Part shown: piece by piece, positions 22,605 through 26,696 of the stretch | How positions within the stretch are numbered: the stretch's first letter is position 1 | Layout: each line of letters begins with the position of its first letter | Assembly: GCA_017621155.1 (NCBI GenBank) | Contig: JAGATP010000015.1 | Span: 62,001 to 126,000 of the forward strand | From: Clostridia bacterium | Lineage (GTDB): Bacteria > Bacillota > Clostridia > Christensenellales > Borkfalkiaceae | DNA length: 64,000 bases | Direction: 5' to 3' | Notes under the pieces: model-generated | Told to the model about the DNA's origin: nothing | The model's input: the letters and a program-made list of their open reading frames with translations, nothing else | Database searches by the model: none | Made by a program: the position numbers and the translations under genes

Positions 22605-22835
22605 CTACCCCTCAACGTACAGGGTCGGATAAATCTTTTCGCCTCGTTCTCCCGCCTCGGCGCGGTGGAATTTGCCCGTAGGAAGGGTGAGAATGCACCC
22701 CTCGGACAGGCGCTCGATGCGATTTTCCCGAATGATCGCGTAGGGCGATACGCCAAACGCTTCGGCGATTTCCCAAAGCGTCTGTCCACGCTTGACCGTA
22801 TACACCTTCTTTTGCGAAAAAGTCAGTTCGTGCAT
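22605..22835 (-). CDS. Small LysM-domain protein
   Basis: 76 residues. Nearly the whole protein is one LysM domain (residues about 10-55): VYTVKRGQTLWEIAEAFG, then SPYAIIRENRI and a closing ILTLPTG. LysM binds N-acetylglucosamine polymers such as peptidoglycan. There is no signal peptide, as for several spore-coat or mother-cell LysM proteins. It starts 38 bp from, and divergent to, the SpoVB-like gene, in a symmetric promoter region. There is no clear ribosome site. Confidence 0.85.
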   Translation of the reverse strand: MHELTFSQKKVYTVKRGQTLWEIAEAFGVSPYAIIRENRIERLSEGCILTLPTGKFHRAEAGERGEKIYPTLYVEG

Positions 22836-22870
22836 GGTCTAACTTATGTTCTCTTCTCATAATTTAGACC
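22836..22870. promoter_or_regulatory. Symmetric divergent promoter/operator of LysM and SpoVB-like genes
   Basis: GGTCTAACTTATG (22836-22848) and its inverted copy (22858-22870) match at 12 of 13 positions around a 9-bp centre. Each arm holds a CATANNNTA sequence pointing outward: CATAATTTA on plus and CATAAGTTA on minus. Start codons lie 4 bp (minus) and 7 bp (plus) from those boxes. It fills the whole gap between the two genes. Confidence 0.6.
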
Positions 22871-22873
22871 GAT

Positions 22874-24382
22874 ATGAACTTCTATTCCACCGCCTTTTTT
22901 GCCACCCTCCTATCCGTCTTACAGCGCTGTCTCGGCTTTTTATACCGCATCGTCCTCTCCCGCACCATCGGCTCTGAAGGCATGGGGCTGTACCAGATCG
23001 CCGTCAGCGTCTTTATGGTCATTCTGACCGCCTGCTCTTCGGGCATTCCCATCACCGTCTCCCGCCTCATCACAAAATACCGCACGGAGAACGCGCCACA
23101 AAAGGAACGCTCGGTCGTCAGCGCGGGGCTCACCATCGCCCTCTCCTTAACGCTACCCACCGTCCTCGTTCTCTTCCTTCTCCGCACCCCTTTTTCCGCC
23201 ATCTTTGCAGACCCGCGGTGCGAAACCGTCTTTCTGCTCCTCCTTCCTTCCCTCTCCTTTTCGGCGGCGCACACCGTGCTGCGCGGCTTCTTTTGGGGAA
23301 ACAAGGAGTTTTTTCCCTATTCCATCACCGAGCTCGTAGAGGAAATCGTGATGATCGTGTCGGGAACCCTTCTCATCTTTCACCTGACCGACCCCTTGGA
23401 AGGCGCAAAGAGAGCGGCCGTCGCCGTCACCCTCTCCAACCTCGCCTCGTTCACCGTCGCCTTTCTCTGGTTTTTCAAAAAGGGCGGGAGCTTCTCCTCC
23501 CCCAAGGGACAACTAAAGCCCCTCCTCGTCACCTCCGTCCCCATCACCGCCATGCGTTCGGGCGCCTCTTTGGCGGACAGCCTTGTCGCCATTCTCTTTC
23601 CCGTCGCCCTCGCGAACGCGGGACTTTCCTCCGCCGACGCCCTTTCCGCCTACGGCACGGTGACGGGCATGGCTTATCCCGTGCTCGCCGCACCCTCCTC
23701 TCTCATCGGCTCGTTCGCGCTCGTGCTCGTGCCCGAGCTTGCCGAAAACTTCTACAAAAAGGACAAGAAAAAGCTGAAGGAAAATGTGGAAGAATCCGTC
23801 CTTTTGACCTCTCTCATTTCCTGTCTGTTCATTCCCTCCCTCTTTCTCTTCGGCACGGAAGCGGGGCTCTTCCTCTTTTCCAACCGCCTTGCAGGACAAA
23901 TCATCTCTTTCTCGGCCTTCTTCCTCCTTCCCCTCAGCCTGAACATGATTTCGTCGGGACTTTTAAACTCCATGCAGGGGGAACGGCTCACCTTCCTCTC
24001 CTTTTGCGTCGGCACGGCGTTCTTTTTGGGCTGTACCCTCCTTCTCCCCCCGCTTTGCGGCGTGTATTCCATCTGCATCGGGTTCGGCGCGGAGGCGATT
24101 GCCGCTTCGCTTTTGCAGCTTTTATTCATCAAAAAGAGGGCGGGCTGCAAAATCAAGCTGGCAAAAGCCGTCTTTTTGCCCCTCCTTCTCTGTCTCCCCG
24201 CCCTTTTCCTTGGTATTCTGCTCAAAAAACTGCTCTTCCTGTTCCTGGGAGAAATCCCCGCCACCATCGTCGGCTGCATTCTTTTGACGCTGTTTACCCT
24301 GATTTTGTACGCTCTTTTCCGACTTTTGCCCAAGGGAATCCTTCCCCTTCCCAAAAAGAAAGCTGCCTTGCAAAAAAATTAG
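22874..24382 (+). CDS. spoVB: SpoVB/MurJ-type polysaccharide flippase
   Basis: 502 residues, about 14 hydrophobic helices throughout. The start FYSTAFFATLLSVLQRCLGFLYR and the segment RTIGSEGMGLYQIA are typical of the SpoVB branch of the MOP flippase superfamily. SpoVB is required for spore cortex synthesis and moves lipid-linked precursors across the membrane. The assignment to SpoVB rather than another MOP flippase is probable, not certain. It has no ribosome site. The -10-like CATAATTTA ends 7 bases before the ATG. Confidence 0.8.
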   Translation: MNFYSTAFFATLLSVLQRCLGFLYRIVLSRTIGSEGMGLYQIAVSVFMVILTACSSGIPITVSRLITKYRTENAPQKERSVVSAGLTIALSLTLPTVLVLFLLRTPFSAIFADPRCETVFLLLLPSLSFSAAHTVLRGFFWGNKEFFPYSITELVEEIVMIVSGTLLIFHLTDPLEGAKRAAVAVTLSNLASFTVAFLWFFKKGGSFSSPKGQLKPLLVTSVPITAMRSGASLADSLVAILFPVALANAGLSSADALSAYGTVTGMAYPVLAAPSSLIGSFALVLVPELAENFYKKDKKKLKENVEESVLLTSLISCLFIPSLFLFGTEAGLFLFSNRLAGQIISFSAFFLLPLSLNMISSGLLNSMQGERLTFLSFCVGTAFFLGCTLLLPPLCGVYSICIGFGAEAIAASLLQLLFIKKRAGCKIKLAKAVFLPLLLCLPALFLGILLKKLLFLFLGEIPATIVGCILLTLFTLILYALFRLLPKGILPLPKKKAALQKN

Positions 24383-26608: not shown

Positions 26609-26662
26609 GTTGACACTTTCTAAAAACTGTCAACCTCATTCTATCATAAAATATGATATAAT
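26609..26662. promoter_or_regulatory. Divergent regulatory region, TetR and hydrogenase operon
   Basis: GTTGACA (26609-26615) and TGTCAAC (26628-26634) form an inverted repeat with a 12-bp centre, a plausible TetR operator. A second palindrome ATCATA-AAA-TATGAT (26643-26657) abuts a perfect TATAAT at 26657-26662 for hymA. That promoter has no good -35 at 17 bp. Confidence 0.55.
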
Positions 26663-26696
26663 GCAAGAGTATGGCATAAAAAAACGGAGGTCAGCG

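Follow-up and report, generated by a model that had tools for sequence, protein, structure and literature searches.

The 38-bp region between the divergently transcribed LysM and SpoVB-like genes probably holds two divergent promoters of the mother-cell sporulation type that overlap reciprocally, a reading to which we assign a probability of about 0.77. In each arm of the palindrome that fills this region, a -10 box for one gene would be combined with a -35 region for the other. The reading is drawn from features of the sequence, namely the boxes, their spacing, their conservation within the genus, the lack of a Shine-Dalgarno stretch, the pairing of LysM with SpoVB and the geometry of the promoters in other genera. 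The element is real and largely of the kind that an earlier note on this DNA had supposed. Here, the window means the whole stretch of 64,000 nucleotides that was analysed, and the features discussed below are listed in Table 1.

Results and discussion

Palindrome and outward boxes

A near-perfect 13-bp inverted repeat with 12 matches and an outward box in each arm had been described at this locus. Recomputation from the sequence returned the same repeat, exact in position and quality (12 of 13), and a box was confirmed in each of the two arms. The statement that both genes begin within 4-7 bp holds when the distance is taken from the boxes, the ATG following after 4 nt for LysM and after 7 nt for the SpoVB-like gene, and does not hold when it is taken from the palindrome, since the LysM ATG (22835-22833, minus strand) directly abuts the left arm and the SpoVB-like ATG is separated from the right arm by 3 bp.

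Table 1. Features of the LysM/SpoVB-like intergenic region and the flanking genes (window positions)
Feature	Position	Strand	Remark
LysM gene, 76-aa protein	22605-22835	-	One LysM domain (PF01476, E 3.1e-8)
Left arm GGTCTAACTTATG	22836-22848		LysM -10 box (minus strand) and SpoVB-like -35 region (plus strand)
SpoVB-like -35 triplet in left arm	22839-22841	+	CTA
LysM outward CATANNNTA box	22848-22840	-	CATAAGTTA
Spacer TTCTCTTCT	22849-22857		9 nt; length kept within the genus, sequence in part only
Right arm CATAATTTAGACC	22858-22870		SpoVB-like -10 box (plus strand) and LysM -35 region (minus strand)
SpoVB-like outward CATANNNTA box	22858-22866	+	CATAATTTA
LysM -35 triplet in right arm	22865-22867	-	CTA on the minus strand (TAG as written)
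SpoVB-like flippase gene, 502-aa protein	22874-24382	+	Polysacc_synt, MurJ; TIGR02900 below cut-off

When the 38-bp intergenic DNA was shuffled, an equally good inverted repeat (spacer up to 12) was obtained in 2 of 20,000 shuffles. In the window as a whole, inverted repeats with at least 12 of 13 matches (spacer up to 30) occur at nine distinct places, compared with a mean of 1.4 and a maximum of 5 for the same class in 30 first-order Markov simulations, and the quality of the repeat alone is thus not unusual for this window. The CATA..TTA pattern present in both arms accounts by itself for 7 of the 12 palindrome matches. Elsewhere in the window, overlapping symmetric CATATTTTATG and CATAAAATATG boxes are found at 26637-26663 between a TetR-like and a NuoE-like gene (both names are our own reading) and represent another candidate bidirectional promoter.

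The two genes and their divergent pairing

The match of the flippase to TIGR02900 spans almost the full model and scores 198 bits, short of the equivalog cut-off of 372.3, and the gene is therefore called SpoVB-like in this study. A SpoVB-like match was present in 393 of the 398 genomes searched in the family. Upstream DNA was read at 95 family loci, comprising the best-scoring matches and 40 loci chosen for genus coverage, and a divergent LysM reading frame was identified at 88 of them, distributed over 17 genera. For this set, an N-terminal search located 74 of 96 loci (22 gave no match), 40 short stretches were afterwards positioned from coordinates already known, and one locus (L120) was removed as a duplicate of L093. 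In genus g11, LysM lies further off and is mostly led by a Shine-Dalgarno stretch.

At five of the SpoVB-like loci (L028, L017, L018, L029 and L019, from genera g6, g17, g2 and g13), neither ATG nor GTG nor TTG occurs from the last in-frame stop to the conserved N-terminus. Each has instead an in-frame ATT, ATC or ATA downstream of a sequence similar to a Shine-Dalgarno motif; this sequence is GAGGTGA at four loci and the weaker GGATGTGAT in L019. These five genes apparently use a non-canonical AUH start codon.

Conservation within the genus

Three genomes of the genus were compared, the window's own (G000) and the congeners G001 and G002, and the SpoVB-like proteins of the two congeners share 63% and 60% identity with that of the window. 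The divergent gene pair was found in all three, together with two outward CATANNTTA boxes separated by exactly 9 bp, the arms reading GGTCTAACTTATG-N9-CATAATTTAGACC in the own genome, GGTATAAGTTATG-N9-CATAATTTAGACC in G002 and GGTATAAGTTATG-N9-CATAGTTTAGAAC in G001. In each of the three genomes, TANNNTATG-N9-CATANNNTA is matched perfectly only once, at the LysM/SpoVB-like locus. With one mismatch allowed there were further places, in numbers close to the backwards control in two genomes and above the control in G002.

The dyad itself is preserved less well. Its matches number 12, 11 and 9 of 13 in the three genomes, and no compensating change was found at the varying or mismatched dyad positions, from which it would follow that selection keeps two boxes at a fixed distance and not the palindrome. 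Because the symmetry decays without compensation, the dyad appears to result from the interleaving of two like divergent promoters and not to be itself under selection. Absence of the palindrome from close relatives had been named in the earlier note as an outcome that would speak against its proposal; this did not occur for the boxes, which are present in all three genomes, and only the symmetry was lost. The divergent promoter pair proposed for the LysM and SpoVB-like genes is therefore supported, and the locus is better described by two interleaved promoters than by the one symmetric element of the earlier note.

Type of the promoters

As in promoters of the sigma-E type, the -10 box begins with CATA in both arms in all three genus genomes. 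In G001 and G002, the SpoVB side has an ATA that precedes CATA by exactly 16 bp; the window has CTA, one base off ATA, on both sides, and the LysM side has CTA in all three genomes. The -35 element of sigma-K promoters is an AC about 17 bp before CATA, and such an AC at N17 was absent from both sides of the three genus loci, which have CT or AT there. In the available part of its text, PMC3789822 gives ATA as the -35 element for sigma-E and AC for sigma-K, with a -10 element common to both, and the C. difficile spoIIID promoter as ATA-N16-CATATATA; in the window's own genome, spoIIID has TCATAAA-N14-CATACAATA. Judged by these motifs, the element appears to be of the sigma-E/sigma-K type and, by the position of the -35 region, closer to sigma-E.

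Comparable promoters were found at SpoVB starts of other genera. From g3, g4, g5 and g10, 25 leaderless-looking SpoVB promoters were selected by eye with spacers of 13-15 bp allowed, so that the number 25 is not a rate. They have a -35 element like TCATAAA, a spacer of 14 or 15 bp and a -10 element like CGTACAATA or AATAAAATA, followed by 4-5 nt and then the ATG, and three of the g3 loci have CTA as their -35 core. The boxes of the window fit the matrix from the other genera at spacer 14. Among 12,800 ATGs of the own genome, 0.15% score as high as the LysM promoter and 1.8% as high as the SpoVB-like promoter, which is the weaker match and a moderate one. The sigma-E-type promoters at the SpoVB starts of relatives suggest the promoter type of the boxes in the window, and the assignment of the boxes to the mother-cell sporulation type, already made in the earlier note, gains support from the sigma-E-like SpoVB promoters of four other genera and from the CATA kept in three of three genus genomes. 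The genes spoVB, cwlD and yabPQ are listed as sigma-E cortex genes of B. subtilis in the accessible portion of PMC517825.

The two sides differ in genus g10, in which 22 loci from related, not independent, species were examined. On the LysM side, AC stands 17 bp before CATANNNT[AG] in 15 of the 20 loci with a box, and on the SpoVB side ATA stands at N16 or N17 in all 21 loci with a box. In this genus, LysM and SpoVB look set for different times.

Sigma factors encoded in the genome

A sigE gene over the cut-off was found in 30 of 37 genomes and not in the window's own assembly, where the best match reached 206 bits against a cut-off of 339. Searches of G000 and G002 yielded neither spoIIGA nor a sigE match at ortholog level, and in the congener G001 a cluster of spoIIGA and sigE with sigG is present at C100:8913-11282 (L187). 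The spoIIGA-sigE-sigG cluster may have been lost, or it may lie in a gap of the assembly; the genes next to the cluster in G001, traced in the available DNA, were not syntenic. The own genome encodes two sigma-K-like factors as well as SigF/G-like and SigH-like factors. In the region 4.2 motif of both sigma-K-like factors (SRSY[IV]SR), arginine stands where the sigE of relatives has glutamine. The choice of the -35 element has been linked to glutamine in sigma-E and to arginine in sigma-K (PMC3789822, available part), and the residue noted here is, on our reading, at the same position.

Leaderless starts

No Shine-Dalgarno stretch was flagged before the SpoVB-like start, and none was seen before the LysM start when the upstream DNA was read by eye. 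Both genes thus have the features of leaderless genes, a -10 box within 4 or 7 nt of the ATG and no Shine-Dalgarno stretch. With the usual distance from -10 box to start site, the predicted start site of LysM falls approximately on the A of its ATG and that of the SpoVB-like gene no more than about three bases from its ATG. Both mRNAs should therefore be leaderless or nearly so, and the ribosome would initiate on a 5'-terminal AUG. The suggestion that the plus-strand gene would be leaderless is supported by these features, and it has to be extended to the minus-strand gene.

Two further genes of the own genome have a CATANNNTA box 4 nt before the ATG, the CwlD-like gene (CATACAATA ccgt ATG) and the YabP-like gene (CATAGAGTA tacc ATG). 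In a 458-kb sample, CATANNNTA was found 2-9 nt before the candidate start of 8 of 414 genes, compared with 0-4 in 16 shifted controls, and several of these eight are not known sporulation genes. Genome-wide, CATANNNTA-N3-8-ATG occurs 56 times against 40 in the backwards control, and the claim of a genome-wide leaderless regulon was dropped because this enrichment is only mild. As SpoVB has Shine-Dalgarno starts in many relatives, leaderlessness is not family-wide. Five proteins of the own genome (L135:11469-12110, L149:19089-19790, L150:6192-7094, L043:1516-2133 and L065:1515-1745) start 4-6 nt after a CATANNNTA box and have no convincing family match, that of L149 (0.003) being at chance level; they are candidates for unknown mother-cell sporulation proteins.

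Alternative explanations and proposed mechanism

Alternatively, both genes might be under the control of a dimeric repressor or activator whose operator is the palindrome, the resemblance to CATA being incidental. The 12-of-13 dyad is centred between the LysM and SpoVB-like genes, the arm sequence TTAGACCGAT appears to resemble the SpoIIID consensus, and the genome carries spoIIID; in B. subtilis, SpoIIID acts as a repressor of spoVB (PMC517825, in its accessible portion). We nevertheless consider an operator improbable, because the symmetry falls to 11 and 9 of 13 in the congeners with zero compensating changes among the variable positions, the conserved columns are the promoter boxes, and the half-site CATAANTTAGACC is not enriched, occurring with at most one mismatch 6 times in the own genome and 6 times in the backwards control, which does not point to a regulon. 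Vegetative (sigma-A) or other promoters, with the TA-rich boxes as degenerate -10 elements of genes that are leaderless and not specific to sporulation, would agree with the failure to find sigE in the own assembly and with the general signature of leaderless genes, a -10-like box this near the ATG (PMC3160421, as far as its text is available). This, too, is hardly to be expected, given that CATA is kept in both arms in the three genus genomes with ATA or CTA at N16, that the SpoVB promoters of the family are sigma-E-like, and that the upstream regions of LysM in g11, which have a longer leader, often contain CATACAAT together with a Shine-Dalgarno stretch.

A further possibility is a sub-version of the divergent promoter pair and not exclusive of it: the two sides could be read in sequence by different sigma factors, SpoVB by sigma-E and LysM by sigma-K, so that the element would act as a switch. 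The AC of the LysM side and the ATA of the SpoVB side in g10 argue for such a switch, but in the window's genus CTA or ATA stands at N16 on both sides and AC at N17 in none of the three loci, so that both sides look alike there, and for the window a switch seems rather doubtful.

For the reciprocally overlapping promoters that we prefer, the last TA of each -10 box would at the same time be the TA of the opposite -35 triplet. Since CATANNNTA and the -35 triplet both end in TA, the same two base pairs can serve both promoters, and with this sharing being reciprocal, near-symmetry is forced. The polymerase footprints would overlap, so that the two directions would compete and probably not both fire on one DNA molecule, and the LysM/SpoVB-like pair would be expected to follow the timing of sporulation. 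The simultaneous drive of both genes suggested in the earlier note may not hold, since with overlapping footprints, and with AC at LysM and ATA at SpoVB in g10, the two genes need not fire together. A wider and much more tentative proposal is that this lineage expresses part of its mother-cell sporulation regulon through leaderless mRNAs, and that here two of the promoters concerned have merged into a 29-bp reciprocal unit (22839-22867) with each -10 box supplying part of the opposite -35 region. The merging might have given LysM, sigma-K-like in another genus, the promoter type of SpoVB, and one mutually exclusive element might set both the timing and the ratio of the two genes.

Comparison with known systems

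In the available parts of the literature on leaderless sporulation genes and on overlapping divergent mother-cell promoters, no description of the LysM/SpoVB arrangement was found. Leaderless translation looks rare in spore-forming Firmicutes; the start-site map of C. difficile contains only 15 potentially leaderless genes (PMC7438776, available part). A family of gut-type Clostridia with sigma-E-type boxes at the start codons of cortex genes would offer a natural system in which to ask why a developmental regulon drops the Shine-Dalgarno step.

The LysM/SpoVB-like locus resembles other bacterial leaderless genes in that a -10 box immediately precedes the start codon and a Shine-Dalgarno stretch is lacking. 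The signals reported in a survey of such genes (PMC3160421, in the part available) are TANNNT or Pribnow-like, with the Firmicutes cases in Lactobacillales and Mycoplasma, whereas the locus has CATA-type boxes on sporulation genes. With the sigma-E cortex promoters of B. subtilis and Clostridioides difficile (spoVB, cwlD, yabPQ) and with spoIIID, it has in common the CATA-type -10 element and the gene classes; the -35 ATA about 16 bp upstream is found in the congeners, and the window's own -35 is CTA. It differs from the sigma-E cortex promoters in that the box lies 4-7 nt from the ATG, no Shine-Dalgarno stretch is present and two promoters are interleaved.

The bidirectional promoters of E. 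coli (PMC12825309, available part) likewise consist of pseudo-symmetric DNA on which RNA polymerase binds in two mutually excluding orientations. There, a single -10 element is shared by the two directions, whereas at the LysM/SpoVB-like locus 9 bp separate two -10 boxes, and the bases in common would be the TA of a -10 box and the TA of the opposite -35, read by a sigma factor of the sporulation type. The locus thus illustrates that the interleaving of two promoters can produce a palindrome with no dimeric protein involved, which calls for caution in the reading of such motifs.
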